NCBI RefSeq assembly: GCF_022479115.1
Contig: NZ_CP092497.1
Span: 3,596,001-3,660,000 of the forward strand
Reading direction: 5' to 3'
DNA: 64,000 bases
DNA from: Amycolatopsis sp. EV170708-02-1
GTDB lineage: Bacteria > Actinomycetota > Actinomycetes > Mycobacteriales > Pseudonocardiaceae
Positions 2,611-61,616 of this stretch are shown here, piece after piece (position 1 is the first letter of the stretch; the number at the start of each line of letters is the position of its first letter). Position numbers and translations under genes: made by a program. The notes beneath the pieces were generated by a model. It searched no databases. It worked only from the letters and a program-made list of their open reading frames with translations, and was not told the DNA's origin.

Positions 2611-2675
2611 CGCGTTTCGTCCTCTGGATGCGGTAGTTCGTGATGTGAACCACCGCATCCAGAGGACGAAACGCG
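2611..2675. repeat. palindromic repeat, family A copy 1
   Basis: Arms of 24 bp (2611-2634 and 2652-2675) are perfectly complementary and the stem continues past one mismatch with GTTC/GAAC. The sequence is the family A consensus except TTTCGTCC/GGACGAAA where other copies have TTTAGTCC/GGACTAAA, a change made in both arms. It begins 4 bp after the prmC stop and could act as a terminator, but no T-tract follows. The rest of the prmC-protease gap shows nothing clear except the protease ribosome site. Confidence 0.85.
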
Positions 2676-2796
2676 GTAGGGCGTTCGGCGGATAGTTAGC
2701 GAGACTCACGACTTCCGGCGGTGCCCAGGGCAAAGCCCACCTCCTAACGTCGATCACGGCCGCCTCATCGGCGGTCCGACTGGGAGGTGTACCCCG

Positions 2797-4782
2797 ATGC
2801 GATCGTCTCTCCGACGAGCCCCACTCAGAACACTCGCCGTCCTCGCCACCGTCGCGCTACTGCCGGGTCTGGTCGCCCAGCCCGCGTCCGCCGCGGCGCC
2901 GGTGCGAGGCTGGCCCGCCGCGATCGACGGGTCGACCTGGGAGAACCAGGACCACATGACGTGGGACGACTACCGCAAACCGCCCGGCACCAACTGGGCC
3001 GACCCGGCGCTGAAGCCGACCAAGCGGATGTTCAAGGGCGCCGTGGTGCTCGCGGACTACCCGGACCAGGAATTCGCCGTCACGCAGGCCCCGCGTTCGA
3101 CGGTGTTCGGGAACCCGGGCCCCGCCGCGAGCAACATCCCCCGCGTGGAAGTCGCGAAGTTCTACCAGGACTTCCTCAACAAACCGCAGGCGCTCAACCA
3201 GGGCCACACGATCAACGAGTACTGGATGGAGGACTCCGGCGGCAGGCTGGGCGTCGAACTGACCGCGTTCGGCCCGTACCGCCTGCCCGGCAAGTCCTTC
3301 GAATACGGCATGGAGTTCCAGCCCGACGCGTGTCCGCCGGACGCGAACTGCAAACGTGACCTGCGCACCGACGCGGGCGCCGCCTGGCGGGCGGACGTCG
3401 GCGACGTCTCCAAGCAGTTCGATTTCGTCTTCTATCTCTCCGCCGGTCAGGACGAGAGCTCGACCTGGCAGGAATTCGGCGTGATGAAGTTCGGCGAGAA
3501 GGAGAACGTGCCCGACGAATTCGGGCCCGGTGTCGCCGGCATGCCGAACGCCGCGTCCACCCGCTACGTCCCGTGGACGTCGTGGAAATCCGCGGCGAGC
3601 ATCTGGCCGAACGCGATCACCGGCTCCTCGACCCAGGCGGAAAGCTCGGGCCAGGGCGTCTACGCGCACGAATTCAGTCACATTCTCGGCATCGGCGACA
3701 ACTACAACAATCCCTTCGGCAATCCGCCGTCCCGTACCTACACCGGGCCGTGGGAGATGATGTCGCGCGGCAGCTTCAACGGCCCCGGCGGACCGCACAC
3801 CCGCTGGCAGATCCCGGCGACGCAGGGCGGCTCGATGGGCTCGCACCACATGCTGCGCACCAAGATGAAGCTCGACATCATCGACCCCGAAGACGTCCTG
3901 AAACTCGACCGGAACTCCCTCGCCAAGACCGGCCCGGTTTCGGCGAGGATCACGGCGCGTTCGGTCCTGCCGGGACAGGGTGCCTACAGCGGCATCAACA
4001 TCGCGCTCACCGGCGGGGACCTTTCGCCGAAATGCGACCGCTCGAAGGATCCGTTCTGCGACGGCGGCGGCTACCACAATTACACCGTCGAGGTCGTCGA
4101 CCGGATGGGCAGCGATTCCTTCGCCCCCGATTCCGGTGTCCTCATCGCGAAGACGAAGAACCAGGACAACGCGCCGTTCGAATGGATCGTCGACGCGAAC
4201 CCGGCCGACATCGGCATGACCGACTACAAGAAGCCGGACGGCACCCCGGTGCCGATCCCGATCGGCGACTACCGCCAGCTGAACGACGCCGCGTTCAAGG
4301 CGGGCACCGGGTCCGCGAGCAAGTACGAGTACACCGACGAGGCGAACAGGCTGAAGTTCCTCGTCTCCGACATCGAGCGTGACCGCAAGGGCGTGCTGTC
4401 CTACGTCGTCACGGTGGCTTCGCTCGACGGCGCGGGCTCGCGGGCCAGGGGTGTTTCGCTGTGGCCGTCGGCCCCGGCGTTCGCCAAGCAGGGGCTCGCG
4501 ACCTGCTCGTTCCCGGTGATCAACACGGGCGACGCGAAGGGCGCGGTGGCGCCGTACAACACCGACACCTATCGCCTGAGCGCGTCCACCAGCGCGAAGG
4601 GCTGGGAGGTGCGGCTGCCGAACGAGCTGTCCACCGTCCCGTTCGGCGGCCGGTCTTCGGCGACCGCGCACGCCAAGCGGGCCGCGGGCGGTGACCACGT
4701 CGCGCACATCAAGCTGACGGCGACGTCGATCGCGGACCCGGCGAAGACGGCGTCCGCAACCTGTACCGCTTTCGCCTTCTGA
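2797..4782 (+). CDS. secreted M6-type zinc metalloprotease
   Basis: A 661-residue exported protease. Residues 1-33 are a Sec signal peptide with a basic start, hydrophobic core and a PASAAAP cleavage region. The zinc site is HEFSHILGIGD from His291, matching HExxHxxGxxD of metzincin-like proteases, and the whole resembles the immune inhibitor A/M6 group. The C-terminal 250 residues look beta-rich and may be a binding or prodomain region. ATG 2797 follows GGGAGGTGT. The gene interrupts the usual prmC-sua5 order and has a family A palindrome before it and a family B palindrome after it, so it looks like a cassette placed in a conserved locus. Confidence 0.85.
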   Translation: MRSSLRRAPLRTLAVLATVALLPGLVAQPASAAAPVRGWPAAIDGSTWENQDHMTWDDYRKPPGTNWADPALKPTKRMFKGAVVLADYPDQEFAVTQAPRSTVFGNPGPAASNIPRVEVAKFYQDFLNKPQALNQGHTINEYWMEDSGGRLGVELTAFGPYRLPGKSFEYGMEFQPDACPPDANCKRDLRTDAGAAWRADVGDVSKQFDFVFYLSAGQDESSTWQEFGVMKFGEKENVPDEFGPGVAGMPNAASTRYVPWTSWKSAASIWPNAITGSSTQAESSGQGVYAHEFSHILGIGDNYNNPFGNPPSRTYTGPWEMMSRGSFNGPGGPHTRWQIPATQGGSMGSHHMLRTKMKLDIIDPEDVLKLDRNSLAKTGPVSARITARSVLPGQGAYSGINIALTGGDLSPKCDRSKDPFCDGGGYHNYTVEVVDRMGSDSFAPDSGVLIAKTKNQDNAPFEWIVDANPADIGMTDYKKPDGTPVPIPIGDYRQLNDAAFKAGTGSASKYEYTDEANRLKFLVSDIERDRKGVLSYVVTVASLDGAGSRARGVSLWPSAPAFAKQGLATCSFPVINTGDAKGAVAPYNTDTYRLSASTSAKGWEVRLPNELSTVPFGGRSSATAHAKRAAGGDHVAHIKLTATSIADPAKTASATCTAFAF

Positions 4783-4792
4783 CAGGAGGGGT

Positions 4793-4838
4793 CTCGTGAG
4801 TGGCAAGGACGGTTAGAACCGTCCTTGCCACTCACGAG
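4793..4838. repeat. palindromic repeat, family B copy 1
   Basis: Perfect inverted repeat with 22-bp arms (4793-4814, 4817-4838), left arm beginning CTCGTGAGTGGCAAGGACGG, around a central AG. It lies 10 bp after the protease stop and 28 bp before the sua5 start. It would fold as a strong RNA hairpin in either direction but lacks a T-tract. Confidence 0.9.
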
Positions 4839-4866
4839 AGATCGGGCAGGGCTACGCTCACTGGCC

Positions 4867-5517
4867 ATGAGCGCGGTGTACGACTGCAGCAAGCGTGAAA
4901 CGCGGGCCGACGGGCTCGCCGCGGCGGCGAGCGCGGTGCGCTCCAGCCGCCTCGTCGTCCTCCCGACCGACACGGTCTACGGCATCGGCGCGGACGCCTT
5001 CGACGGCGGTGCCGTCCAGTCCCTCCTGCGGGCCAAGCACCGCGGCCCGGACATGCCGGTCGGCGTCCTGGTCGGCTCCTGGTCCACTGTGGACGGACTC
5101 GTGCTCGGCACGCCCCCGCAGGCCCGCGCGCTCATCGAGGCCTTCTGGCCGGGCGACCTCTCGATCATCCTGCCGCACGCGCCGAGCCTGCAGTGGGATC
5201 TGGGCCAGTCACGCGGGACGGTGATGCTGCGCATGCCGCTGCACCCGGTCGCGCTGGAACTGCTGCGTGACGTCGGCCCGATGGCGGTCTCGAGCGCCAA
5301 CGTCTCCGGCCGCCCGCCCGCCACCACCGCGCAGGAAGCCGTCGACCAGCTCGGTGACAGCGTCGCGGTGTACCTCGACGGCGGTTCGTCCGGCGAGCCC
5401 GTCCCGTCCACGATGGTCGATCTCACCGGCGACGACCCGGTCGTCCTGCGGGAGGGCGCGGTCAGCCGGGCCGCCGTCGCGGAAGTACTGGGTGTGCCCG
5501 CGGAGTCACTCGCCTGA
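4867..5517 (+). CDS. L-threonylcarbamoyladenylate synthase (Sua5/YrdC)
   Basis: Makes threonylcarbamoyl-AMP from threonine, bicarbonate and ATP, the first step of t6A37 tRNA modification. The 216-residue protein is the YrdC domain without the C-terminal Sua5 extension. Seen are the RLVVLPTDTVYGIG signature near residue 40, the basic KHRGPDMP segment, and SSANVSGRPP near 145. ATG 4867 is preferred over an upstream frame start at 4825 that falls inside the palindrome. It keeps the actinobacterial position upstream of the wecA-like gene and the ATP synthase operon. Confidence 0.9.
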   Translation: MSAVYDCSKRETRADGLAAAASAVRSSRLVVLPTDTVYGIGADAFDGGAVQSLLRAKHRGPDMPVGVLVGSWSTVDGLVLGTPPQARALIEAFWPGDLSIILPHAPSLQWDLGQSRGTVMLRMPLHPVALELLRDVGPMAVSSANVSGRPPATTAQEAVDQLGDSVAVYLDGGSSGEPVPSTMVDLTGDDPVVLREGAVSRAAVAEVLGVPAESLA

Positions 5518-5605
5518 TTCACCGGGTGTCAGTACCGTTCGCCGCCGTATCCCCCTGGCGCGGTAGCGTGTTCGAGTGACTTGGACCTCGGCGGCGTAAC
5601 GCACC

Positions 5606-6757
5606 ATGCCTCCTACGCAAGGCCTCCCGATCCGGGAGTACCTCCTCGTCGCCCTCACCGCGGCGGCCGTGACCTTCCTGCTCACCGGTGTCGTGCGCCG
5701 GGTCGCCATCCGGATCGGCGCGATCGCCAACCCGCGGGCCCGCGACGTCCACGTCACCCCGATCCCGCGTATGGGCGGGATCGGCATCTTCCTCGGTGTC
5801 GCCGCCGCGATGGGGCTCGCGCACCAGCTGCCCGCGCTGAGCCGCGGCTTCGACTTCTCCTTCGACTCGCTGGGCGTGCTGCTCGCCGCGGGCGTGATCT
5901 CCCTGATCGGCGCGCTCGACGACCGGTTCGAGCTGGACGCCTGGACGAAGCTGGCGGGCCAGGTCATGTGCGCCGGGATCCTGGTGATCTTCGGCGTGCA
6001 GTGGGTGTCGTTCTGGGTGCCGTGGGGCGGCGGTGGCGAGTCCTTCGGGCAGGTCCTGGTGCTGGACAAGAACCAGGGCGCGCTGCTGACCGTCGTGCTG
6101 GTGGTCGTCATGGTCAACGCGATGAACTTCGTCGACGGTCTCGACGGCCTCGCCGGCGGCCTCGGCTTCATCGCCGCCGCGGCGACCTGTTCCTTCTCGC
6201 TCGGCCTGCTCGACTCCTCGGGCGGGGACGTCGGCGCGTACCCGCCGGCTCTCATCGCCGCCACGCTCGCCGGGGCCTGTCTCGGCTTCCTGCCGTACAA
6301 CTTCCAGCCCGCGAAGATCTTCATGGGCGATTCGGGCTCGATGATGATCGGGCTCATGCTGGCGGGCGCGACGACGTCCGCGTCGGGCCGCGTGCCGTAT
6401 CCGCAGTTCAGCGGCAAGGACGCGCTCGCGCTGCTCTCGCCGCTCGTCGTGGTCGCCGCGGTGCTGTTCGTGCCGCTGCTCGACCTGATCATGGCGGTCG
6501 TCCGCCGCACCCGCCGCGGCGAGAGCCCGTTCGCGGCGGACAAGATGCACCTGCACCACCGCCTGCTGGAGATCGGGCACTCGCAGCGCCGCGCGGTGCT
6601 GCTCATCTACTTGTGGGCGGGGCTGCTCGCGTTCGGCGCCGTTTCGGTGACGCTCTTCGACAGCGTCGCGGTCTTCTGGATCGTCGGATTCGGCTTCCTG
6701 CTGGCGACCCTGGTGTCGATCGTGCCGAGACTGCGGTCCCGGAACCGGACCGCCTGA
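5606..6757 (+). CDS. MraY/WecA-family undecaprenyl-phosphate sugar-1-P transferase
   Basis: Integral membrane transferase that puts a GlcNAc-1-phosphate-type sugar on a polyprenyl phosphate to start cell-wall glycan linker synthesis (WecA/TagO type). The 383-residue protein has about ten hydrophobic helices. It carries the family motifs GALDDRFELD (Asp pair for Mg2+), NAMNFVDGLDGLAGG (catalytic loop), FMGDSGSM and the late histidine-rich MHLHHRLLEIGHS. The exact sugar is inferred from M. tuberculosis, where wecA (rfe) sits in the same place before atpI. ATG 5606 is the only sensible start. Confidence 0.9.
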   Translation: MPPTQGLPIREYLLVALTAAAVTFLLTGVVRRVAIRIGAIANPRARDVHVTPIPRMGGIGIFLGVAAAMGLAHQLPALSRGFDFSFDSLGVLLAAGVISLIGALDDRFELDAWTKLAGQVMCAGILVIFGVQWVSFWVPWGGGGESFGQVLVLDKNQGALLTVVLVVVMVNAMNFVDGLDGLAGGLGFIAAAATCSFSLGLLDSSGGDVGAYPPALIAATLAGACLGFLPYNFQPAKIFMGDSGSMMIGLMLAGATTSASGRVPYPQFSGKDALALLSPLVVVAAVLFVPLLDLIMAVVRRTRRGESPFAADKMHLHHRLLEIGHSQRRAVLLIYLWAGLLAFGAVSVTLFDSVAVFWIVGFGFLLATLVSIVPRLRSRNRTA

Positions 6758-6814
6758 ACCGCCCGCCTCGGCGCGGGCCTACACTGGCGGGCTGAGACGA
6801 GCAGGGAGTTTTCT

Positions 6815-7270
6815 GTGAGCGAGACCGAGAAGACCGTCGAGGCGGAGGAGAACCCCCACGCCAAGGTGGTTCTGCAGGCGGCCAACGCGATGATGAAGGC
6901 TTCCCTGAAGCTGGTTCCGCCGGCGGTGCTGATCTGCATCGTGGTCTTCACCATCCTCAATGGACTCCCGGGCCTGCTCGGCTCGGTCATCGGCGGCGTG
7001 CTCGCCATCGTGTCCGCGCTCGCGACGCTGGGCTTGATGCGCTTCAGCGCGGGCATGGACCCGATGTTCGTGATGGTGATCGCGCTCGGTGGTTACGTGC
7101 TCAAGGTCGTCGTCCTGTTCGCGGCGCTGAGCCTGCTCCGCGGAGTGACCTCGATCCACCCGATGGCGCTGGGCGTGACCATGATCGTCGCGATCCTCGT
7201 GGCCGCCGCGGTGGAGTTCGCGGCCTTCCGCAAGACCAAGATCCCGACGATCATCCCCGCCTCCCGCTGA
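6815..7270 (+). CDS. atpI: ATP synthase protein I (AtpI-like)
   Basis: A 151-residue protein with a charged N-terminus and four predicted membrane helices (about 33-52, 54-75, 86-108, 118-138). Its place directly before atpB marks it as AtpI, a helper thought to assist c-ring assembly or Mg2+ supply. Sequence conservation in this family is weak, so the name rests on position and topology. GTG 6815 follows GCAGGGAG. A 379-bp gap separates it from atpB, so the synthase operon probably has its own promoter. Confidence 0.8.
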   Translation: MSETEKTVEAEENPHAKVVLQAANAMMKASLKLVPPAVLICIVVFTILNGLPGLLGSVIGGVLAIVSALATLGLMRFSAGMDPMFVMVIALGGYVLKVVVLFAALSLLRGVTSIHPMALGVTMIVAILVAAAVEFAAFRKTKIPTIIPASR

Positions 7271-7274
7271 TTCC

Positions 7275-7312
7275 GGGACCGAGGTCCTGACCTGGGGCGG
7301 GACCTAGGTCCT
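7275..7312. promoter_or_regulatory. pair of DevR/DosR-like boxes before the ATP synthase operon
   Basis: Two near-identical sites, GGGACCGAGGTCCT (7275-7288) and GGGACCTAGGTCCT (7299-7312), lie 24 bp apart. Each has the GGGAC-N4-GTCC spacing of the mycobacterial DosR (DevR) box, with one change at the last position. They are just after the atpI stop and about 340 bp before atpB. Hypoxia or redox control of ATP synthase is inferred. Confidence 0.5.
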
Positions 7313-7649
7313 CGGCCGATCGGGGGCAATGTAGTACGCCTGTACGGCCCGTCGGTACCCCCTGATATGGTCCGCGTATGGGCGGCGGCCTCGGCTGCCG
7401 GCTCCTGATGACGAACCCCGAACAGCAGTGTGGCGGCGGCGTTGAATCGTCCCTCATTACCCGCTGGTAGGCGTCTGTCTCCCGGGAGCACTGCATCGAG
7501 AATCCTCGTGTGCGGAACGTGAAACCGTGTTCAGCACATCGTGGGGTGGCCGCCTCCGACGGCCCGATACGTGTCGGGTACGTTAAGTCCAGATCGTGAC
7601 GATTCCCCCGGCGGAGTGAACGCCGGCCGGGAGAACCGGAAGGAGCCCA
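7313..7649 (+). other. long untranslated leader/promoter region of the atp operon
   Basis: No convincing reading frame was found in these 337 bp. A -10-like TATGGT (7366-7371) is present but its -35 match is poor. The segment ends in GGAAGGAG, the atpB ribosome site. No known riboswitch fold was recognised. Confidence 0.5.
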
Positions 7650-8447
7650 GTGGGCGCGCTGGTACTAGCCGAGGGTGCGGAGTTCGCGCCGCCTGGTGTC
7701 AAAGACTTCAACCTGCCGCCGTTGTTCGGTTCCGGCTATTGGTTGAGCTTCACCAAGCCGATGCTGCTGGTGGTCATCTCCCTGATCATCATCGTCACCT
7801 ACTTCATGGTGACGTCGCGCCGCCTCAAGGTCGTCCCCGGCAAGGGACAGTTCATCGCCGAAAGCATTTACAACTTCGGCCGCAACAACATCGCGCGTGA
7901 GCAGATCGGTTCGGCCGACTTCAAGCCGTTCATTCCGCTGATCCTGGGGTTGTTCAGCTTCATCCTGGTCAACAACCTCTTCGGGATCATCCCGTTCTTC
8001 CAGTTCCCGACGATGGCCCGATTCGGCTTCCCCGTCGCTCTCGCGTTCCTCGTTGTTTACCCGGTGTACCACTACGTCGGCATCAAGCGCCACGGCTTCG
8101 GTCACTACATGAAGAAGGAACTGGCGCCGCCCGGCATCCCCGGATTCGTTCTGCCGCTGTACTCCACCATCGAGTTCGCGCAGAAGTTCTTCATCGCGCC
8201 GGCCACCCTGGCCATCCGAGTCTTCGCGGCGATGTTCGCCGGGCACCTCATCATCATGGTCTTCACGCTCGGCGGGAGCTTCCTGCTGACCGAAGGTGAA
8301 GGCATCGTGAAGGTCGCGTCGCCGGTGGCGTTCCTGTTCGCCATCGCGATGACGTTCCTGGAGGCATTCATCCAGGTCCTGCAGGCATACATTTTCGCAC
8401 TGCTGTCCGCAGGGTACATCGGCGCCGCGCTGGCGTCGGAGCACTGA
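7650..8447 (+). CDS. atpB: F0F1 ATP synthase subunit a
   Basis: The stator subunit of the membrane proton channel, 265 residues with about five to six membrane helices. The conserved long helix with the essential Arg appears as PATLAIRVFAAMFAGH (about residues 186-201), and the C-terminal helix AFIQVLQAYIFALLSAGYIG forms the second half channel. GTG 7650 is set by GGAAGGAG eight bases upstream. It opens the eight-gene operon atpBEFHAGDC, all on one strand in standard order. Confidence 0.97.
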   Translation: MGALVLAEGAEFAPPGVKDFNLPPLFGSGYWLSFTKPMLLVVISLIIIVTYFMVTSRRLKVVPGKGQFIAESIYNFGRNNIAREQIGSADFKPFIPLILGLFSFILVNNLFGIIPFFQFPTMARFGFPVALAFLVVYPVYHYVGIKRHGFGHYMKKELAPPGIPGFVLPLYSTIEFAQKFFIAPATLAIRVFAAMFAGHLIIMVFTLGGSFLLTEGEGIVKVASPVAFLFAIAMTFLEAFIQVLQAYIFALLSAGYIGAALASEH

Positions 8448-8509
8448 GAAAACACCAAAAGCCCCCGATCCGCGTGAGTCGCGCGGACCGAGTTTGAAGG
8501 GAAACGCAC

Positions 8510-8767
8510 GTGAGCAACATCGTTCTTGCGCAGGCTGCCGAGGCCGCTTCCAACATCAACCCGGGTCTCGCCGCCATCGGCTACGGCCTCGGCGCGATCG
8601 GCCCCGGTATCGGTGTGGGTCTGATCTTCGCCGCGGTCATCAACGGCACCGCCCGTCAGCCGGAGGCGCAGGGCAAGCTGCAGAGCATCGCCTTCTCGAC
8701 CTTCGTGCTGACCGAGGTGCTGGCGCTGATCGGTATCGTTATCTACTTCCTCGCCTCCGTCGGCTGA
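8510..8767 (+). CDS. atpE: F0F1 ATP synthase subunit c
   Basis: An 85-residue hairpin of two membrane helices that forms the rotating proteolipid ring. Helix 1 carries the glycine repeat [15 protein letters not shown]. The polar loop is ARQPE, and the ion-carrying carboxylate is Glu69 in [11 protein letters not shown] one-residue pattern of this kind indicates proton rather than sodium coupling. GTG 8510 is preceded by GAAGGGA. The protein is the target of diarylquinolines in mycobacteria; whether this one binds them cannot be read from here. Confidence 0.97.
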
Positions 8768-8801
8768 GTTTTTCCTGGCTCATCTCGCTTAAGGAGACGT
8801 T

Positions 8802-9359
8802 GTGCTGAAGACCGAATTGGTGTTGGCCGCAGGAGACGCGCCCAACCCGATCGTGCCGCACGTTCCCGAGCTCATCCTCGGGTTCATCGCCTTCCTTCTG
8901 CTGCTGTTCGTTCTGAAGAAGTACGTCGTTCCCCGTTTCGAGGCGACCTACGAGGAGCGGACCAAGCTGATCGAAGGTGGCATCGAGCGGGCCGAAAAGG
9001 CTCAGGCCGAAGCCGAAGAAAACCTTGCGCAGTACAAGGCGCAGCTGGCGGAAGCCCGATCCGAGGCCGCGAAGATCCGCGACGACGCCCGGCTCGAAGC
9101 CGAGCAGATCAAGGCGGAACTGCGGGCCGAAGCGGAGGCCGAGTCCCAGCGCATCGTCGCCCAGGGGCAGGCTCAGCTGCAGGCCCAGAAGGCGCAGATC
9201 ATCGCCGAGCTGCGCGCCGAACTCGGCCGTAACTCCGTCGAGCTGGCCAGCCGCATCGTCGGCGAGTCGCTCGCGGACGACGCGCGCCGTCACGGCACCG
9301 TGGACCGGTTCCTCGCCGAGCTGGAGACCGCTGGTGCCTCCAACGGAGCAGGAAAGTAG
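8802..9359 (+). CDS. atpF: F0F1 ATP synthase subunit b
   Basis: Peripheral-stalk subunit, 185 residues, with one N-terminal membrane helix (about 20-43) and a long charged, Ala/Glu-rich coiled coil (50-165). GTG 8802 follows AAGGAG at 8791. Subunits b and delta are separate genes here, unlike the fused b-delta of mycobacteria, which supports a Pseudonocardiaceae rather than a mycobacterial origin. Confidence 0.95.
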   Translation: MLKTELVLAAGDAPNPIVPHVPELILGFIAFLLLLFVLKKYVVPRFEATYEERTKLIEGGIERAEKAQAEAEENLAQYKAQLAEARSEAAKIRDDARLEAEQIKAELRAEAEAESQRIVAQGQAQLQAQKAQIIAELRAELGRNSVELASRIVGESLADDARRHGTVDRFLAELETAGASNGAGK

Positions 9360-9365
9360 ACCAGA

Positions 9366-10187
9366 ATGACGCTGCATGCTGCGAGCCGTGAAGCGCTCGA
9401 CCTCGCCGAGAAGCGTCTCGGCGAGGTTCTGGCCGCCGCGGGTACGGACCCGGCGACGGTCGGCGACGAGCTGCTTTCGGTCGTCGCCCTGCTGGACCGG
9501 GAGATCGGCCTGCGCCGGGCCGTCGCCGACGGTTCGGCCTCGTCCGAAGCCCGGATCGGCCTCGCCCGCGGGATCCTCGCGGGCAAGGTTTCCGAACCGG
9601 CCCTGCAGGTGCTCGACTCCGTGGCGGGCAGCCGCTGGTCGAGCCCGCGCGAACTGACCGACGGGCTCGAGGCCCTCGGCCGCTCGGCGCTGCTCACCAG
9701 TGCGGAGAAGTCCGGGAACATCGACGCTGTCGAAGACGAGCTGTTCCGGGTCAGTCGTATCGTCGCGGGTGAGCCGGAGCTCGAACGGGCACTGTCCGAC
9801 CTGACCGCCCCCGCGGAGGCGAAGCGGACCCTGGTCCGCACCTTGTTCGCCGACAAGGTGGACGTGGTCACCAAGACCCTCGTCGAGCAGGTCGTCCTGC
9901 GCGCCAAGGGCCGTGGGGTCGGCAACGCCCTCGAAGAGCTGGTCCAGCTGGCCGCGGAACGCCGTGAGCGCTCGGTCGCCCGGGTGACCAGCGCGAGCGC
10001 GCTTTCCGACGAACAGCAGGCCCGGCTGAGCGAGAAGCTCAACGCCCTTTACGGGCGGCAGCTCGCGCTGCACGTCGAGGTCGACCCGTCACTCGGCGGC
10101 GGGCTCGTCGTCCGCGTCGGCGACGAGGTCATCGACGGCAGCACCGCGGGGCGCATCGACGCCCTGCGTCGCCGGCTGGCCGGCTGA
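9366..10187 (+). CDS. atpH: F0F1 ATP synthase subunit delta
   Basis: Links the peripheral stalk to the top of the F1 hexamer. At 273 residues it is about 90 longer than the E. coli protein, as is common in actinobacteria. The extra part is an N-terminal helical segment rich in Leu and Arg. The C-terminal family signature is seen as DPSLGGGLVVRVGDEVIDGS (about 239-258). ATG 9366 lies 6 bp after the atpF stop. Confidence 0.93.
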   Translation: MTLHAASREALDLAEKRLGEVLAAAGTDPATVGDELLSVVALLDREIGLRRAVADGSASSEARIGLARGILAGKVSEPALQVLDSVAGSRWSSPRELTDGLEALGRSALLTSAEKSGNIDAVEDELFRVSRIVAGEPELERALSDLTAPAEAKRTLVRTLFADKVDVVTKTLVEQVVLRAKGRGVGNALEELVQLAAERRERSVARVTSASALSDEQQARLSEKLNALYGRQLALHVEVDPSLGGGLVVRVGDEVIDGSTAGRIDALRRRLAG

Positions 10188-10241
10188 ACCCACAACAACG
10201 ACTTTGCACACTGGCACGAACGAAGCGAGAGCGGGAACGAA

Positions 10242-11879
10242 ATGGCGGAGCTGACGATCTCCTCGGATGAGATCCGTAGCGCGATCGAGAACTACGTCTC
10301 GAGTTACGCCCCGGACGTGAGCCGGGAAGAGGTTGGCGTCGTCGTCGACGCCGGTGACGGTATCGCCCACATCGAGGGTCTTCCCTCGGCGATGGCCAAC
10401 GAGCTGCTCGAGTTCCCCGGCGGGGTCCTCGGCGTGGCGCTGAACCTGGACGCGCGCTCCATCGGTGCCGCGATCCTCGGTGACTTCGAGACCGTCGTCG
10501 AAGGTCAGGAAGTCAAGCGGACCGGTCAGGTCCTCTCGGTTCCGGTCGGCGAGGGCTACCTCGGCCGCGTCGTGAACCCGCTGGGCGCCCCGATCGACGG
10601 CCTCGGCGAGATCGAGACCACCGAGCGTCGCCCGCTGGAGGTCAAGGCCGCTTCGGTGGTCGAGCGCCAGCCGGTGTCGGAGCCGCTGCAGACCGGTATC
10701 ACCGCGATCGACGCGATGACCCCGATCGGCCGTGGCCAGCGTCAGCTGATCATCGGTGACCGCAAGACCGGTAAGACGGCCGTCGCGGTGGACACGATCA
10801 TCAACCAGAAGGCCAACTGGGAGACCGGCGACCCGAAGAAGCAGGTTCGCTGCATCTACGTCGCGGTCGGCCAGAAGGGCTCCACGATCGCCGCGGTCAA
10901 GAAGTCCCTCGAGGACGCCGGCGCGATGGAGTACACCACCATCGTCGCGGCCCCCGCGTCGGACTCCGCCGGCTTCAAGTGGATCGCGCCGTACACCGGC
11001 TCGGCCATCGGCCAGCACTGGATGTACGAGGGCAAGCACGTCCTCATCGTGTTCGACGACCTGACCAAGCAGGCCGACGCCTACCGCGCGATCTCGCTGC
11101 TGCTGCGTCGCCCGCCGGGCCGTGAAGCCTTCCCCGGCGACGTCTTCTACTTGCACTCCCGTCTCCTCGAGCGGTGCGCGAAGCTCTCGGACGAGCTGGG
11201 GGCGGGCTCGCTGACCGGTCTCCCGATCATCGAGACCAAGGCGAACGACGTGTCGGCCTACATCCCGACCAACGTCATCTCGATCACCGACGGTCAGTGC
11301 TTCTTCCAGTCGGACCTGTTCAACGCCGGTCAGCGCCCGGCCATCGACGTGGGTATCTCGGTCTCCCGCGTGGGTGGTGCCGCGCAGGTCAAGGCGATGA
11401 AGGACGTTTCGGGTTCGCTCCGTATCGACCTGTCGCAGTACCGCGAGCTGGAGGCCTTCGCGGCCTTCGCCTCGGACCTCGACGACGCGTCGAAGGCGCA
11501 GCTCGAGCGTGGTGCCCGGCTGTACGAGGTGCTCAAGCAGCCGCAGTACTCGCCGATCCCGGTCGAGGAGCAGGTCGTCACGGTGTACCTCGGCACGAAC
11601 GGTCACTTCGACACCGTTCCGACCGAGGACGTGCGCCGCTTCCGCGACGAGTTCGTCGACTCCGCGCGTCGCAAGCACGGAGAGCTCCTCAAGGACATCC
11701 GCGAGTCGGGCAAGTTCTCCAAGGAGACCGCCGAAGGGCTGGTCGACGCGGTGAACGAGTTCAAGAAGGAGTTCACCACCTCCGAGGGCAAGAGCCTGGT
11801 CGAGGTCTCCGACGCGATGGACGCCGAGAAGGTCGGGCAGGAGACCGTCAAGGTCAACAAGCCCGCCCCGAAGAAGTGA
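10242..11879 (+). CDS. atpA: F0F1 ATP synthase subunit alpha
   Basis: Non-catalytic nucleotide-binding subunit of the F1 hexamer, 545 residues. A beta-barrel crown (1-95), a P-loop GDRKTGKTA near 172-180, the arginine-finger region [10 protein letters not shown] and a helical C-terminus are all visible. The C-terminal tail is about 35 residues longer than in E. coli and lysine-rich. In mycobacteria a comparable extension suppresses ATP hydrolysis; the same role here is inference. ATG 10242 begins the frame after a weak GAGAGCGGG site. Confidence 0.97.
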
Positions 11880-11890
11880 GCTGATAGCTC

Positions 11891-14253
<2,363 letters not shown>

Positions 14254-14263
14254 TGTTCCGATG

Positions 14264-14306
14264 AGCGGCGGGATCAGTGTCTACTGTGGACGCTGGTCCC
14301 GCCGTT
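14264..14306 (+). promoter_or_regulatory. 19-bp RNA hairpin between atpD and atpC
   Basis: Left arm 14264-14282 and right arm 14288-14306 pair along all 19 positions as RNA, with about five G-U pairs, around a 5-base loop. No T-tract follows, so it is more likely a processing or attenuation element within the operon than a full terminator. Confidence 0.6.
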
Positions 14307-14367
14307 CGCTTACTGGGATCGTCGACTATTACACTCGGTGCCAGCACCTGAGGTGAAGGGAAGCTAC

Positions 14368-14733
14368 GTGGCTGAGATTTCTGTCGAGCTGGTAGCCGTC
14401 GAGCGCCGTCTCTGGTCCGGTACCGCCACGTTCGTGGTGGCGCAGACCACCGAAGGCGAGATCGGCATCATGGCCGGTCACGAGCCGGTTCTGGGCCAGC
14501 TCGTCGAGGGTGGTGTCGTGAAGGTGACGACCACGGACGGCGAGACCGTGACCGCCGCGGTGCACGGCGGGTTCCTGTCGGTCACCGCGACCGGCGTGAG
14601 CATCCTCGCCGAGAGCGCGGAGCTTTCGGACGAGATCGACGTCGACGCGGCCAAGAAGGCGCTGAGCGGCGAAGACGAGCAAGAGCGGGCTAGGGCGACC
14701 GCCCAGCTTCGCGCGGCCGGTCAGTCAGTCTGA
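14368..14733 (+). CDS. atpC: F0F1 ATP synthase subunit epsilon
   Basis: Small rotor subunit that regulates hydrolysis, 121 residues. The N-terminal beta-sandwich begins [20 protein letters not shown] and contains [15 protein letters not shown] and HGGFLSV. The C-terminal part is a short helical hairpin ending in a charged tail. GTG 14368 is chosen over a GTG 30 bases upstream because GAAGGG precedes it and the protein then starts as in mycobacterial AtpC. It is the last gene of the operon. Confidence 0.95.
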
Positions 14734-14758
14734 CCGGGCGAAGGACAGGGGCCGGGCC

Positions 14759-15193
14759 GTGGAAATCGCCGTGGGTGTTCTCGGGGCCCTGACCGTCCTG
14801 GCCGTTCTCGCGGCCTGGTATTCGTTGCGGTGGGTCCGGATGCGCCGCGGTGGCGGCGTGAGCGTCGCGCTGCGGTGGCGTCCGGACGAGGCGCGGTCCA
14901 GCTGGCATCTGGGGCTGGGCCGCTACGAGGGCGAGAAGTTCGTCTGGTTCCGGGTGTGGAGCCTGCGGACGGGCCCGGATCGCGTGTTCGAGCGCGAAAG
15001 CATGGAGATCGCGGACCGGCGGGACCCCTCCGGCACGGAGGCGTACGCCGTCCCCGAAGGTTCGATCGTCCTGCGGTGCGAGTCCGCCAGGCAGGAGGCG
15101 ATCGAGATCGCGATGGGTCCCGGCGCCCTCACCGGCTTCCTTTCCTGGCTGGAGTCGGCCCCACCGGGCCGCCGCCTCCCGCGCGCTTCCTGA
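14759..15193 (+). CDS. DUF2550 family membrane-anchored protein
   Basis: A 144-residue protein with one N-terminal membrane helix (about 3-23) followed by a basic RWVRMRRGGG stop-transfer segment and a small beta-rich cytoplasmic domain. No catalytic motif is visible. A protein of this family follows atpC in M. tuberculosis (Rv1312), and that conserved place is the main reason for the family call. GTG 14759 is 25 bp after atpC, so it may belong to the operon. The stop is followed at once by the 21-bp repeat array. Confidence 0.8.
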   Translation: MEIAVGVLGALTVLAVLAAWYSLRWVRMRRGGGVSVALRWRPDEARSSWHLGLGRYEGEKFVWFRVWSLRTGPDRVFERESMEIADRRDPSGTEAYAVPEGSIVLRCESARQEAIEIAMGPGALTGFLSWLESAPPGRRLPRAS

Positions 15194-15195
15194 GA

Positions 15196-15300
15196 TACGC
15201 CTCCAATCACGCGAGTTACGCCTCCAAGCACGCGAGTTACGCCTCCAATCACGCGTGTCGTCCCTCTGATCACGCGAGTTCGCCGTTCCGGCACGCCGTA
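15196..15300. repeat. array of five 21-bp direct repeats (family E)
   Basis: Five exact-length units start at 15196, 15217, 15238, 15259 and 15280. The first three are nearly identical, with core CCTCCAAGCACGCGAGT; the last two are diverged. There are no spacers. The array fills the gap between the DUF2550 stop and the EPSP synthase start. A longer version in both orientations occurs at 51289-51575. Confidence 0.85.
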
Positions 15301-15310
15301 TGCTCACGCC

Positions 15311-16546
15311 GTGACCATCGTCGACATCCCCGGTTCGAAGTCGATCACCGCCCGAGGCCTGTTCCTCGCGGCCGCCGCCCACGGGACGACCGTGCTGAGC
15401 AGGCCGCTGCGTTCGGACGACTCCGAGGGCTTCGCCGAGGGCCTCCTCAAGCTCGGCTATCAGGTTTCCCGCGCTTCCGGCGAGTGGACGATCGAGGGCA
15501 GGCCGGAGGGCCCCGCCGTCGACAGCGCCGACGTCTTCTGCCGTGACGGCGCCACCACCGCGCGCTTCCTGCCCGCACTGGCCGCCGCCGGGCACGGCAC
15601 CTTCCGGTTCGACGCCTCCGAGCAGATGCGCGCCCGGCCGCTGGGGCCGCTCACCGACGCGTTGCTGGAGCTGGGCGTCGACCTGACCTTCGAAGGCTCG
15701 CCGGGCCACCATCCGCTGGTGGTGCGCGCCGCCGGGATCAAGGGCGGCGAACTGACGCTGGACGCGGGGCTGTCCTCGCAGTTCCTGACCGCGTTGCTGC
15801 TGGTCGGGCCCCTGACCGCCGAGGGCCTGCGGATCACCGTCACGGATCTCGTTTCGGTGCCCTACGTCGAGATCACCATCGCGATGATGCGGCGCTTCGG
15901 CGTCGAGGTCGTCCGTGACGGCGACACGTTCGTCGTGCCGCCGACGCCGTATCAGGCCTGCCGCTACGAGATCGAGCCCGACGCGTCGACGTCCAGCTAC
16001 TTCTTCGCGGCGGCGGCGTTGACCGGTCGTTCGGTGACCGTGCCGGGGCTCGCCGAGGGCGCTCTGCAAGGGGATCTGGCCTTCGTCGAGGTCCTGCGGC
16101 AGATGGGCGCGGACGTCGAGGTCGGCCCGGACGCCGTGACCGTGACCGGGACGGGCGGGCTGCGCGGCGTCACGGTGAACATGCGCGACATCTCCGACAC
16201 CGTGCCGACGCTCGCGGCCATCGCGCCGTTCGCGGACGGGCCGGTGCGGATCGAGGACGTCTACAACACGCGGATCAAGGAATGCGACCGGCTGGCGGCG
16301 TGCGAGGAGAACCTGCGCGCGATGGGCGTCTCGGTCGAGACCGGGCGGGACTGGATCGAGATCCGGCCTGGCACGCCGGCGGGGGCGCTCGTGAAGTGCC
16401 GCCGGGACCACCGGATCGCGATGGCGTTCAGCATCACGGGACTGCGGACGCCGGGGATCACGCTGGACGACCCCGGTTGCGTGAAGAAGACCTTCCCCGG
16501 CTTCCACGACGCCCTGGCTTCGCTTCGGGCTTCCTGGGGCCTCTGA
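15311..16546 (+). CDS. aroA: 3-phosphoshikimate 1-carboxyvinyltransferase (EPSP synthase), atypical
   Basis: Transfers the enolpyruvyl group of PEP to shikimate-3-phosphate, the sixth step of the shikimate pathway. At 411 residues it is of normal length. Catalytic and binding segments are present: PGSKSITAR near the start, SSQFLTALLL, TRIKECDR (Glu341 and Arg344 of E. coli), RRDHRIAMAF (Asp384-Arg386) and KKTFPGF (Lys411). The PEP pocket reads CRDGATTARF where E. coli has GNAGTAMRP. Aligned on TxxR, Gly96 becomes Ala and Pro101 becomes Phe. Ala at that place is known from glyphosate-insensitive enzymes. It is not at this locus in mycobacteria, so it is an insertion and perhaps a second copy. 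GTG 15311. Confidence 0.85.
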   Translation: MTIVDIPGSKSITARGLFLAAAAHGTTVLSRPLRSDDSEGFAEGLLKLGYQVSRASGEWTIEGRPEGPAVDSADVFCRDGATTARFLPALAAAGHGTFRFDASEQMRARPLGPLTDALLELGVDLTFEGSPGHHPLVVRAAGIKGGELTLDAGLSSQFLTALLLVGPLTAEGLRITVTDLVSVPYVEITIAMMRRFGVEVVRDGDTFVVPPTPYQACRYEIEPDASTSSYFFAAAALTGRSVTVPGLAEGALQGDLAFVEVLRQMGADVEVGPDAVTVTGTGGLRGVTVNMRDISDTVPTLAAIAPFADGPVRIEDVYNTRIKECDRLAACEENLRAMGVSVETGRDWIEIRPGTPAGALVKCRRDHRIAMAFSITGLRTPGITLDDPGCVKKTFPGFHDALASLRASWGL

Positions 16547-16548
16547 AG

Positions 16549-16569
16549 CATTTAGTCCTCTGAATGCGG
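16549..16569. repeat. half of a family A palindrome
   Basis: Only one arm of the family A element is present (TTTAGTCCTCTGAATGCGG), a few bases after the EPSP synthase stop, and no complementary arm follows. It looks like a decayed or incompletely inserted copy. Confidence 0.6.
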
Positions 16570-16614
16570 CATTTCTACCGGGCTTCGGACGTGATCCGCG
16601 TCTATTCTCGGTCC

Positions 16615-16773
16615 ATGACTCAGAGCGAGGACACGAACCGCTGGAGCCACCTTCCCGAGCCCGTGTCCCTGGAGGACACGATCACGATGAAGGCGATCGA
16701 CCCGGGCAAGGACGGCACGCCCGACGTCGACCTCGAGCGTTATTGGGCAGCACAGGAGCAGGGCCGATTGTGA
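16615..16773 (+). CDS. small conserved-looking hypothetical protein, 52 aa
   Basis: A hydrophilic, acidic 52-residue protein with no signal or membrane segment and no motif I recognise. ATG 16615 is chosen over an upstream open frame because a -10-like TATTCT (16603-16608) ends exactly 6 bases before it, implying a leaderless message. The codons are G/C-ending as in real genes here. Its stop TGA is the first part of a family C palindrome. It converges on cobO. Confidence 0.6.
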   Translation: MTQSEDTNRWSHLPEPVSLEDTITMKAIDPGKDGTPDVDLERYWAAQEQGRL

Positions 16774-16774
16774 G

Positions 16775-16821
16775 CTGACGGACGCTTTCGCCGCATCGGA
16801 CGCGGTGAAAGCGTCCTTCAG
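16775..16821. repeat. palindromic repeat, family C copy 1
   Basis: Arms of 20 bp (16775-16794 and 16802-16821) with two mismatches around a 7-base loop, built on GGACGCTTTC / GAAAGCGTCC. It lies between the small gene and cobO, which converge, and starts one base after the small gene's stop. The normal cobO stop (16818-16820) is inside its right arm. The as-read frame of cobO runs through it. Confidence 0.8.
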
Positions 16822-17389: not shown

Positions 17390-17450
17390 GAAGCCGACTC
17401 TACCGGCCCGGCGTAAGGCAAATCCGGGCGAGAGGGCATGATTGGCGCCC

Positions 17451-18725: not shown

Positions 18726-18775
18726 GCGAAGTTGCAGAGTTGCTGGTCGGCGCCGCTCCCAGAAGGGCGACCGAC

Positions 18776-18832: not shown

Positions 18833-18921
18833 TAGCGGTAACACTTGCGCGCCGCCGGCCACAGCGAGCGACGTGACCGGCGACGTCCTGCGACTTTGCC
18901 GAGCCTCGGCGTTAAGCGCGA

Positions 18922-51280: not shown

Positions 51281-51288
51281 CCCCGAGT

Positions 51289-51575
51289 TACGCCTTCAAG
51301 CACGCGAGTTCCGTCTCTGAGCACGCGTGTTCCGGCTTCCGTCACGCGAGTTCCGTCTTCCGTCACGGATGTTCCGGTTCCGCCGCGCGTGATCGGGCGG
51401 ACGACACGCGTGATCCGATGGACGACACCCGTGATCAGGCGGACGACACACCCGTTGCCGAGTCCACCGCGCGCCGTCCTCCGGCATCGTCGTGCTTGGA
51501 GGCGGAACTCGCGTGCTTGGAGGCGTAACTCGCGTGCTTGGGGGCGTAACTCGCGTGCTTGGGGCGGATCTGATG
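51289..51575. repeat. inverted array of 21-bp repeats (family E)
   Basis: Five forward units begin at 51289, 51310, 51331, 51352 and 51373. Three units in the opposite direction start at 51394, 51415 and 51436, and three more reverse units at 51492, 51513 and 51534. The outer ones are closest to the 15196 array. The whole is a large imperfect inverted repeat filling most of the 351-bp gap after the AraC gene. No spacers and no supported gene. Confidence 0.8.
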
Positions 51576-53310: not shown

Positions 53311-54519
53311 ATGCGTGTACTCCTGTCCACTATCGGGACGAGGGGTGAGGTACAGCCGCTGGTGGCACTGGCGGTGCGATTGCGGGAACTCGGCCGGGAA
53401 GTCCGGCTTTGCGCGCCGCCGGATTTCCGTGAGTGGGCCGAACGTCTCGGGATCTCCTTCGCGCCGTTGGGGCCGGAACTGCGGTCGACGGCGAAGCCGG
53501 ATTCCGCGATGACCAAGGCGATGGCCACGCCGGAAGGGCGGCGCGCGATGGCCGAGGCCATGGTGGTGAACCAGTTCGAGACGATGCCGGACGCGGCCGA
53601 GGGCTGCGACGCCGTCGTCGCGGGAATGGCCTTGAACATCGCCGCCCATTCGGTGGCGGAACAAAAAGGGATTCCGTATTTCTTCACCGCCTACTGCCCG
53701 ATAACGCTGCCTTCACTGCACCATCGTCCGCCCGTTTTCCCGGGATGGGCGCCGAAAGATCCCGATGCCGCGATACCGGCCTTGTGGGCGGACGACGCGG
53801 AACGGTGGAACGGCCAATGGGGCGGCGTGCTGAACGCGCAGCGGGAAAAGCTCGGCCTCGGGCCGGTGGACGACGTCCGCGGGCATATCTTCACCGAGCA
53901 TCCGTGGCTGGCCGCCGATCCGGTGCTGGCGCCGTGGCTGGGCCCGTCGGCGCTGGACGTCCACCAGACCGGTGCCTGGCTCCTGCCGGACCACAGCCCG
54001 TTGTCGCCGGAACTGGAGGCGTTCCTCGACGACGGGGAACCGCCGGTCTACTTCGGCTTCGGGAGCATCCGCGCGCCGGAGGAGATCGCGAAGGCGATGA
54101 TCGAAGCGGCGAGGGCGCACGGACGGCGGGCGATCGTGTTCCGCGGCTGGACCGAGCTGGCACTGATCGACGACGAACCCGACTGCATCGCGATCGGGGA
54201 CGTCAACCAGCAGGCGCTGTTCCCCCGGGTCGCGGCGGTCGTGCATCACGGCGGCGCCGGTACCACCACCGCGGCGACCCGGGCCGGGGTGCCGCAGGTG
54301 CTGGTGCCGCAGATGTTCGACCAGCCGTACTTCGCGCGGCGTGTCCGCGATCTCGGGGTGGGGACGTCGATCTCGGGGGAGCCCTCGGCCGAAGCGCTGA
54401 CGCTCGCTTTGGGCGAGGTGCTTCGCCCCGAGGTCGCCTCTCGGGCCGGGCAGATCGGCGGCGAGGTGCGGACGGACGGCGTCGATGTGGCGGCCCAGCT
54501 CCTGATTTCCAGCGTTTAG
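53311..54519 (+). CDS. glycopeptide-type GT-B glycosyltransferase
   Basis: A 402-residue UGT-family (GT1) sugar transferase closely similar in pattern to the vancomycin-group enzymes (GtfB/GtfE). Seen are MRVLLSTIGTRGEVQPLVAL at the start, the interdomain linker DHSPLSPELEAFLDDGEPPV, and the C-terminal donor-site HHGGAGTTTAATRAGVPQVL with PQMFDQPYFARRV. ATG 53311 follows GAAGGGGG. No peptide synthetase or sugar-pathway genes are nearby. Its stop codon TAG lies in the family A palindrome that follows. Confidence 0.85.
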   Translation: MRVLLSTIGTRGEVQPLVALAVRLRELGREVRLCAPPDFREWAERLGISFAPLGPELRSTAKPDSAMTKAMATPEGRRAMAEAMVVNQFETMPDAAEGCDAVVAGMALNIAAHSVAEQKGIPYFFTAYCPITLPSLHHRPPVFPGWAPKDPDAAIPALWADDAERWNGQWGGVLNAQREKLGLGPVDDVRGHIFTEHPWLAADPVLAPWLGPSALDVHQTGAWLLPDHSPLSPELEAFLDDGEPPVYFGFGSIRAPEEIAKAMIEAARAHGRRAIVFRGWTELALIDDEPDCIAIGDVNQQALFPRVAAVVHHGGAGTTTAATRAGVPQVLVPQMFDQPYFARRVRDLGVGTSISGEPSAEALTLALGEVLRPEVASRAGQIGGEVRTDGVDVAAQLLISSV

Positions 54520-54573
54520 TCCTCTCGATGCGGTACTTGCGCGTGCAACGACCGCATCCAGAGGACTAAACGC
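54512..54573. repeat. palindromic repeat, family A copy 4
   Basis: Arms of 23 bp (54512-54534, 54551-54573) with one uncompensated C-C mismatch, plus TTGC/GCAA inside. The GTTTAG at each end provides the TAG stop of both convergent genes: the glycosyltransferase on the plus strand and the phosphotransferase on the minus strand. Confidence 0.92.
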
Positions 54574-55405
54574 GGGAGGAGAGATAGCGCTCGAGGGCGG
54601 CTTCGGCCTCAGGGAGCCGCTCCGGGAACCGCCGCGCGATCACGAACCGCCACGGGACCTCGAACAGCCGTCGCAGCGCGATGAACGGCTCCAGCGACGA
54701 AGGCGCCAAGCCGGCCGGGTACGCGTCCAGAGTCGCGCGTCCGGCCTCCGCGTAGAGCACGCCGAGGTCCCAGCCGAGCGGCCCGCGCCAGGTGTCCTCG
54801 AAGTCGAGCCAGCACGGCCCGGCCGCCGTCGCGACGACGTTCCCCCGGTGGGCGTCTCCGTGCAGCGGCCGGGCCTCGCCGTCCGGAAGCGCCGCCGCGA
54901 CCCGTTCGAGTTCGTCGTACAACCGGGGCAGCGCGGGGCCCATGGCGGCGCCGTGCCGGTCGAGCAGCGTCCGGAGTTCGCGGACCGGCCCGAGTTCGGG
55001 CAGTTCACCGGGGTAGTCGGCGAGCGCGTCGTGCACCCGGGCGAGGGAAAGCGCCACCTCGCGTGGCGACAGCGTGTGCCCCGGCTCGTGCGGGGTGTAG
55101 TGCCAGAGAGTGACCGGGAGTCCGTCGGCGAAATGCGGTCCTGCCGGGGGATCCATGGTCGGTGAGACGACGAGCACATCACGTTCCGTGAGGTGCTTCG
55201 ACAGCTCGACGTCGCGCGCGAGCCACTCCTCGGGCGAGGACCGGGCGAGCCGGGTCGTGCCGGGGACCCGTGCCACCACCGGACCCAGTCTCACCAGCAC
55301 GTTCGACTTGAAATGCAGGACCTCGGGGCGGCCGGTCGGCAGGCCGAACCGGTCACCGATGGCGACCGCCGCCGCCACTCCCGCACGTGTGTGTCCGTCG
55401 GTCAC
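54566..55405 (-). CDS. aminoglycoside phosphotransferase-family kinase
   Basis: A 279-residue kinase-fold protein of the APH/choline kinase group. The N-lobe has LHFKSNVLVRLGPVVARVPG, the catalytic loop HGDAHRGNVV and the metal Asp WLDFEDTWRGP. The substrate may be an antibiotic, a sugar or a small alcohol; the sequence does not tell. The stop TAG is supplied by the palindrome. The antibiotic-resistance label is not supported by context. Confidence 0.83.
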   Translation of the reverse strand: MTDGHTRAGVAAAVAIGDRFGLPTGRPEVLHFKSNVLVRLGPVVARVPGTTRLARSSPEEWLARDVELSKHLTERDVLVVSPTMDPPAGPHFADGLPVTLWHYTPHEPGHTLSPREVALSLARVHDALADYPGELPELGPVRELRTLLDRHGAAMGPALPRLYDELERVAAALPDGEARPLHGDAHRGNVVATAAGPCWLDFEDTWRGPLGWDLGVLYAEAGRATLDAYPAGLAPSSLEPFIALRRLFEVPWRFVIARRFPERLPEAEAALERYLSSRV

Positions 55406-59391: not shown

Positions 59392-59396
59392 CCTCA

Positions 59397-61160: not shown

Positions 61161-61171
61161 AAGGGAAAACC

Positions 61172-61576
61172 GTGTCTTTGGAAGTCCAGCGCGACGGCGA
61201 GCATCGCTTCGTCGGCCGCAACGAACGCGGTGCCGAGGTAATGATCGGCCGCAAGGGCGCCGAGGGCGCCTTCTCGCCCGCCGAACTGCTGCAGATCGCG
61301 GCGGCGGGCTGCTCGGCCGTCACCGCCGAGAACCTCATCACGCGCCGGATCGGGGAGGACTCGAAGTTCCGGGTCGGCGTGACCGCGGACAGGCGCGAAG
61401 ACGCTTCGGAGCTCGACGCCGTCCACGTGGCTTTCGACGTCGACGTGTCCTCGCTGCCCGCCGCGGATCGAGAGGCGCTCGCGGCGGCGGTGGATCGCGC
61501 CATCGAGCGGCTGTGCACGGTGAGCCGGACGCTGAAGAAGGGCATCCCGGTCACGGAGAGCTTCCCGACCTCGTGA
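61172..61576 (+). CDS. OsmC/Ohr family peroxiredoxin-like protein
   Basis: A 134-residue thiol peroxidase-type protein with the first reactive Cys in IAAAGCSAVTAEN and the second in ERLCTVSRTLKKG, as in OsmC/Ohr. It likely reduces organic hydroperoxides. GTG 61172 is preferred because GAAAGGGA lies upstream; the in-frame GTG at 61157 overlaps the kinase stop and is also possible. The stop TGA lies in the family B palindrome. Confidence 0.87.
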   Translation: MSLEVQRDGEHRFVGRNERGAEVMIGRKGAEGAFSPAELLQIAAAGCSAVTAENLITRRIGEDSKFRVGVTADRREDASELDAVHVAFDVDVSSLPAADREALAAAVDRAIERLCTVSRTLKKGIPVTESFPTS

Positions 61577-61616
61577 GTGGTAAGGACGGTTAGAACCGTC
61601 CTTACCACTCACGAGG
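61569..61616. repeat. palindromic repeat, family B copy 4, with paired changes
   Basis: 23-bp perfect arms (61569-61591, 61594-61616). The sequence has GGTAAGGA/TCCTTACC where copies 1-3 have GGCAAGGA/TCCTTGCC, a compensated change in both arms. The OsmC stop TGA (61574-61576) is inside the left arm. It also ends the convergent gene at 61625. Confidence 0.92.

Follow-up and report, generated by a model that had tools for sequence, protein, structure and literature searches.

Long palindromes stand on or beside stop codons across the 64,000-nt stretch of DNA analysed here (the window; bases 3,596,001-3,660,000 of a single-contig, 9,660,387-base Amycolatopsis-like genome, hereafter the own genome). 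How did they come to lie there: by insertion, by selection at gene ends, or by old inheritance? For its NucS protein, the closest named records, 99-100% identical, come from Amycolatopsis orientalis DSM 40040, A. roodepoortensis and A. decaplanina. A sequence-only reading of the window had described nine full copies of three families (A, B and C), a further hairpin at 18776 and half a B copy, and all of them exist. The labels A, B, C, D, E, F, G, H and K are the analyst's own, not published names; single-link clustering of hairpins at 0.72 fuses C, E, F, G and similar families into one group. Each palindrome forms the same long hairpin read from either strand, and the full palindromes are listed without a strand:

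2611-2675: family B palindrome, 4 nt past the prmC stop (2606); the corresponding slot of the relative G020 also holds a B copy
4793-4838: family A palindrome, 10 nt past the M6 peptidase stop (4782), ahead of sua5; the G020 slot holds family H
~16547-16574, + strand: half copy of family B, directly past the first EPSP synthase stop (16546)
16775-16821: family C palindrome, 1 nt past the stop of a 50-aa ORF that is convergent with the cobalamin adenosyltransferase gene
18776-18832: family D hairpin, 50 nt past the second EPSP synthase stop in a convergent gap of 196 nt
21924-21969: family A palindrome between divergent genes, with a single mismatch
28620-28673 (core 28624-28669): family A palindrome between convergent ABC transporter and isochorismatase genes; relatives have other palindromes here
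32317-32380: family B palindrome, 13 nt past the nucS stop (32303)
40835-40912: family C palindrome with the inner module doubled, directly past the PTS EIIA/HPr stop (40834)
54512-54577: family B palindrome containing the stops of both convergent genes, its own TAG (54517-54519) and the end of the facing gene (54566-54568)
61568-61617 (core 61570-61615): family A palindrome in a convergent gap, providing the osmC stop

The flanking genes are real by Pfam: PrmC, M6 peptidase, Sua5, ABC transporter, isochorismatase, NucS, glycosyltransferase, APH-like kinase, OsmC, EPSP synthase and PTS EIIA/HPr. The 50-aa ORF next to 16775 (stop 16771-16773) is uncalled by the gene caller; G020 and a second relative, G014, both conserve its DNA. 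Eight of the ten full palindromes start at most 14 nt from a stop codon or hold one, as had been claimed for nearly all; 18776, at 50 nt, departs from that rule, and 21924 had been correctly singled out as the exception between divergent genes. At 61570 (TGA 61574-61576) the repeat does itself provide the stop, and at 54512 it does so for each of the two facing genes. Stop codons on both strands, ascribed to every element, are found in nine of the ten; the minus strand of the B copy at 2611 lacks one.

Other features of the window deserve mention. The cobalamin adenosyltransferase frame reads through the C palindrome (16682-16865), and the G020 and G014 frames end at the palindrome edge. Arrays of a 21-nt unit (CGAGTTACGCCTCCAAGCACG-like) occupy 15191-15296 and 51284-51562 in opposite orientations; similar arrays fill palindrome slots elsewhere, e.g., at locus L103 of G034. 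Two neighbouring LysE-type translocator genes (20597-21849) share long stretches of 80-89% identity, which looks like tandem duplication. A simple terminator scan of bases 1-20000 found 7 candidates against 8.4 expected, the palindromes not among them.

Placement relative to genes

Placement was assessed in 60 evenly spaced 20-kb stretches of the own genome and a 456-kb block around the window; because the window, L054 and L055 (of 61 stretches) overlap the block, they were left out of the pooled 1.616 Mb. Genes were called by a home-made codon model; the cobalamin adenosyltransferase gene (between 16682 and 17400) escaped it. Of the palindromes in the window, the hairpin finder overlooked the outer B copies (2611, 54512) and the two C copies, which makes hairpin counts minimum values. 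One of 46 A-superfamily hairpins lacks a gene on one side and is left uncounted. The remaining 45 divide into 35 in convergent, 9 in same-direction and 1 in divergent gaps, and in 42 the centre lies within 60 nt of a stop codon, whereas 200 random sets of intergenic positions contain at most 11 convergent and 14 stop-near positions. Copies are thus not random relative to stops, and their position between convergent gene pairs, absent from the earlier note, is the strongest regularity of all.

Unrelated palindrome families have the same placement as A. Convergent gaps contain 33 of 51 hairpins of a GAAGG-type group, 15 of 23 from the smaller families pooled and 25 of 56 single-site hairpins (random maxima 16, 9 and 14, respectively); 36, 13 and 38 of them are near a stop (random maxima 16, 8 and 15). 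In same-direction gaps, hairpins lie closer to the upstream stop than to the next start in 8 of 9 cases for A, 16 of 17 for the GAAGG-type group, 7 of 8 for the smaller families and 20 of 27 for single-site hairpins. Occupancy of convergent gaps varies with their size: hairpins are found in 0 of 104 gaps of up to 10 nt, 9 of 20 of 11-40 nt, 49 of 80 of 41-100 nt and 36 of 66 longer than 100 nt. They also occupy 65 of 908 same-direction and 7 of 273 divergent gaps, and are seldom called inside genes.

A separate set of own A loci, 24 of 27 of which fit the strict framework (the other three were left out), comprises 13 convergent, 10 same-direction and 1 divergent copies, 21 of them within 40 nt of a stop. 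Where gene ends beside A copies were inspected, the stop lies inside the element in 13 of 75 cases, eight of these being the outer TGA. Copies with the A framework behave similarly in G135, which belongs to another genus (12 of 15 within 40 nt of a stop, none divergent), and in G007 (10 of 15, with two divergent). Divergent copies include 21924, the two in G007, the one among the 24 own loci and one family G copy in A. roodepoortensis.

Sequence, copy number and mobility

The A half-site is TCGTGAGTG-N9-GTT, with the outer TCGTGAGTG and inner GTT conserved across nine genera. Allowing up to two mismatches, it has 232 forward and 241 reverse matches in the own genome (none for a reversed control), against 25 and 29 in G020; family H is amplified in the opposite way, with 15 and 10 half matches in the own genome and 120 and 122 in G020. 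The amplified family therefore differs by species, as A and H demonstrate. The full framework, TCGTGAGTG-N9/10-GTTNNAAC-N9/10-CACTCACGA, has 221 matches in the own genome. Half-site matches are present in 48 of 80 genus genomes, ranging from 0 to 343 per genome, with one control match over all. Sampling of the family found the framework in 45 of 297 genomes and in 9 of 46 genera, the highest count being 403 copies in G135; sampling across the class found it in 1 of 394 genomes, namely the own genome.

The halves are mostly paired: 2.55 Mb contain 62 short pairs, 6 long pairs and 12 forward plus 12 reverse singles. An apparent strand bias of A among the matches listed was dropped when the loci proved to be full palindromes. 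The segment of the own genome at ~3.89-4.66 Mb (0.77 Mb) has no exact A half among the matches listed, and six sampled stretches from it (L056-L061) contain a single A-like variant. Several G014 palindromes (the G014 block, L264) are broken by N or adapter-like sequence, probably reflecting assembly trouble at hairpins, so copy counts in such drafts may be low.

The A core is predicted to fold with -40 to -42 kcal/mol. Across 89 A copies drawn from several genomes, T or C predominates at position 12, which is complementary across the arms in 80; elsewhere in the element there are 68 compensated pair changes, against 12.6 expected if the arms were independent, and 83 changes in a single arm. 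Since whole subtypes are copied, these changes do not count as independent events. Many G135 and G007 copies are built from two unlike halves, with N9 segments complementary at 2-9 and 3-9 of 9 positions, respectively, and their placement is retained; the unit exchanged may thus be a half-module. At least four T residues within 8 nt are found in just 8 of 152 A flanks; without a U-tract, classical intrinsic termination is not expected.

The sequences also bear on how the elements move. A direct repeat of 3-9 nt, as left by target duplication, borders 0 of 76 A copies (shuffling mean 1.5 at 3 nt), which disfavours classical transposition. The Y1/TnpA_REP transposase (PF01797, Y1_Tnp) has no match in 80 genus genomes, the control search being positive in 5 of 14, and RAYT transposition is accordingly unsupported. 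Nested insertion into the loops of native terminators, an idea raised by the G020 palindrome at the 28620 slot and by one GAAGG-type palindrome inside a B-like one, was tested by comparing each left flank with its own right flank, mispaired flanks serving as the control. It was rejected as a rule for A (matching flanks in 2 of 59, 1.8% expected); the other two groups, with 5 of 86 and 1 of 34 against 1.3-1.4%, are slightly above the shuffles, and their mean scores are higher than the top of 30 shuffles.

Some A halves extend into a longer common end (GTTAG-GCC-GGTACCTACTG-like) and enclose other palindromes, making composite forms of ~200-460 nt where both ends are visible (L043, L044, L090, L024, L026, L031, L288, L111 and the G014 block). 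An insertion sequence (IS) of ~1.3 kb lies inside A palindromes in both orientations, flanked by a 16-nt direct repeat that equals the palindrome centre (L004:1502-2872, L025:1502-2871 and L076:10279-11649 in the own genome, with matching half copies in the G014 block). Its transposase has rve and IS481 leucine-zipper Pfam matches (L004), and the element seems to home into family A. Among the matches listed, the one transposase gene between A halves belongs to this IS, which has its own ends and a 16-nt target duplication.

Exchange of palindromes in orthologous gaps

If the repeats were kept by old inheritance only, relatives would have the same palindrome in the same gap. They often have another palindrome or none, even where the flanks are ~92-97% identical. 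The slot at 28620 was compared in 30 loci, the window included, five of them without one gene match. Fifteen relatives with flanking genes ~92-97% identical have an open gap. G015 has the A type of the window, with T for C at position 12; in other relatives the gap holds A with a different inner sequence, a palindrome of family K or G, a composite or an array of a 21-nt repeat. The more distant G009 carries a short palindrome in a gap of 33 nt, and eight distant genomes have no gap by alignment.

Longer syntenic comparisons, in which slots were classed as same, intermediate or different at similarity limits of 0.8 and 0.65 chosen by the analyst, extend this picture. The block shared with G020 has 21 gaps with a stop-near hairpin in both genomes, of which 12 hold similar, 2 intermediate and 7 unrelated hairpins; nine of these gaps are A slots in the own genome, and there G020 has an unrelated palindrome in six, an intermediate one in one and a similar one in two. 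G014 shares 14 such gaps (6 similar, 5 intermediate, 3 unrelated). The own A slots with a hairpin in G014 are A-type in 4 of 4 cases and unrelated in 0 of 4, so replacement of A is not seen there. Unrelated palindromes have thus been swapped in the same slots, clearly with G020 and more weakly with G014. Inheritance is part of the picture, given the similar hairpins in 12 of 21 and 6 of 14 common slots, and the slots themselves are shared above independence: Fisher p is 9e-5 for convergent and 4e-9 for same-direction gaps with G020, and 5e-4 and 9e-5, respectively, with G014.

Single slots of the window illustrate the range of outcomes. A C-type copy stands at the 16775 place in all three genomes, shortened in G020 and lengthened in G014. 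The half B copy at 16547 is kept in G020 and shortened in G014, and the 21924 gap has A-like remnants in both. In place of the D hairpin at 18776, both have abutting stops, TGATCA. A search of the G014 gap matching the B copy at 32317 found no hairpin. The osmC gene ends at the TGA of A in the own genome, at a TAG ahead of H in G020 and at a TAG with no palindrome in G014. In nucS neighbourhoods of named species (50 of 80 loci used, slots not aligned individually), A. orientalis DSM 40040 has two copies of an A variant, A. decaplanina has two of A itself, and A. roodepoortensis has three of family G (one convergent, one same-direction, one divergent); 7 of 12 other Amycolatopsis-labelled loci, likewise not aligned slot by slot, have no such hairpin. 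The earlier suggestion of insertion or selection at gene ends is supported on both counts: placement is non-random, and old inheritance is not the sole source.

Probable two-way gene ends and known systems

What could hold a slot in place while its content changes? On balance, the palindromes are probably hairpins that work as 3' ends in both directions, whether as terminators without a U-tract, as protected mRNA ends or as both; they sometimes give the stop codon, and they are replaced and amplified. Both facing transcripts would fold a 20-30-bp hairpin, which would either end transcription without a U-tract or form a protected mRNA 3' end after Rho-dependent termination, and would stop facing genes from reading into one another. 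For Streptomyces clavuligerus, PMC8269248 reports that a U-tract is missing from 353 of 535 structured 3' ends and that bidirectional ends occur. In some cases, the outer TGA or TAG of the element is the translation stop as well. The slot would persist as its sequence changes, with the unrelated families (A, B, the C/E/F/G group, D, H, K) serving as interchangeable cassettes; their copying may proceed by recombination or conversion between half-modules, or by some mobile machinery, but probably not by RAYT transposition. The data fit insertion and selection alike; selection for a 3'-end function, acting on spreading palindromes, is the preferred reading. Several findings argue the other way. 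A terminator needs neither a conserved outer TCGTGAGTG nor an inner GTT, and their conservation in nine genera points to sequence recognition; many copies in G135 and G007 pair poorly in the inner part yet keep their place; divergent copies exist; the own A slots show no replacement in G014; and the element is dispensable, since none of the 104 shortest convergent gaps has one.

Selfish, MITE-like palindromes, steered to gene ends or existing hairpins by a putative transposase or recombinase and with an incidental effect on termination, would account for the swing in A half matches from 0 to 343 within one genus, for a framework whose outer and inner blocks are conserved in 9 of 46 genera, for the ~200-460-nt forms ending in A halves and for the insertion-like gain at 18776 relative to the abutting stops of two relatives. 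This is nevertheless rather unlikely: no A copy among 76 has a target duplication of 3 nt or more, Y1_Tnp is found in 0 of 80 genomes, in the stretches fetched none of the longer forms has a gene between its A halves (the IS with its own ends aside), and unrelated families would all require the same target choice. Recognition of the DNA itself, with the palindrome serving as the dimeric site of a roadblock, topoisomerase or nucleoid protein between convergent genes and the hairpin as a by-product, fits the symmetry, the convergent preference and the TCGTGAGTG and GTTNNAAC blocks conserved across genera around a variable N9. It appears more improbable still, because families without these blocks (the C/E/F/G group and others) are placed alike and the variable N9 retains its pairing in most own copies. 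Descent of ordinary terminators from a common ancestor, alike by descent only, suits the similar hairpins shared with G020 and G014 and the C copy at 16775 in all three genomes, but the unrelated palindromes in orthologous slots exclude it as a sole account, and with A and H amplified oppositely in two species it has next to no standing. Equally implausible is random insertion with survival only where harmless, which agrees with the scarcity of hairpins inside genes: the intergenic-only null already includes such a filter and still falls far short of the 35 convergent and 42 stop-near copies observed among 45, which refutes a filter acting alone on a uniform intergenic target.

The reading as exchangeable two-way gene ends can be taken further. 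In a bolder and rather doubtful version, a putative recombinase would join half-sites (TCGTGAGTG-N9-GTT) at a 2-bp core and place them at stops; they would be mobile two-way cassettes, Pseudonocardiaceae-wide, through which the currently winning family rewrites transcription and translation ends in bulk. If the palindromes are exchangeable 3' ends, many gene ends of these actinomycetes would be slots for competing repeat families, turning over as flanks change by ~5%, and three points become testable: long U-less hairpins ending transcription, replacement of one family by another in one gap, and repeats giving both stops. The palindromes are also candidate compact two-way terminators for actinomycete expression work.

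A literature search, covering few subscription journals, found no naming of these repeats among the papers listed, so an earlier description is possible. Several known systems invite comparison. MITEs have inverted ends, are non-coding and reach high copy number. The palindromes share these traits, with longer forms ending in A halves, but differ in the lack of target duplication in 76 A copies; among the matches listed, the long A forms are a few hundred nt and no parent transposon was found there. U-tracts set canonical intrinsic terminators apart from the A copies. Closer are the U-less (I-shaped) terminators of GC-rich bacteria, described, as cited in PMC8269248, as stable hairpins without a U-tract that can form bidirectional ends. 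The palindromes likewise are stable predicted hairpins at gene 3' ends without a U-tract; unlike those terminators, as described there, they are dispersed repeats, nearly identical to one another, with turnover between species, and their role as terminators is putative.

Sequence-conserved hairpins at actinobacterial gene ends are already represented by the TRIT family. TRIT, a repeated terminator-like motif of Mycobacterium tuberculosis named in PMC3526491, is similar to the palindromes by description only, and an Rfam search of the window returned no family at gathering score. In Neisseria, inverted pairs of the DNA uptake sequence act as terminators, according to PMC2397512 and PMC2267715. 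There as here, a short repeat in inverted pairs forms hairpins at gene ends in hundreds of copies. The Neisseria motif is also common singly, whereas A halves are mostly paired (62 + 6 pairs vs 12 + 12 singles), and here several unrelated families use the same slots. REP/BIME elements with RAYT are high-copy extragenic palindromes near gene 3' ends. Family A is similarly short, extragenic and abundant (221 full copies), with 42 of 45 at gene ends; unlike in REP/BIME systems, Y1_Tnp is absent from the 80 genus genomes, the stems are longer and near-perfect, and slots are swapped between unrelated families. The palindromes thus resemble uptake-sequence terminators and REP elements, but each of these has a tested feature that they lack; they are classed as neither, and stand as distinct dispersed gene-end palindromes.
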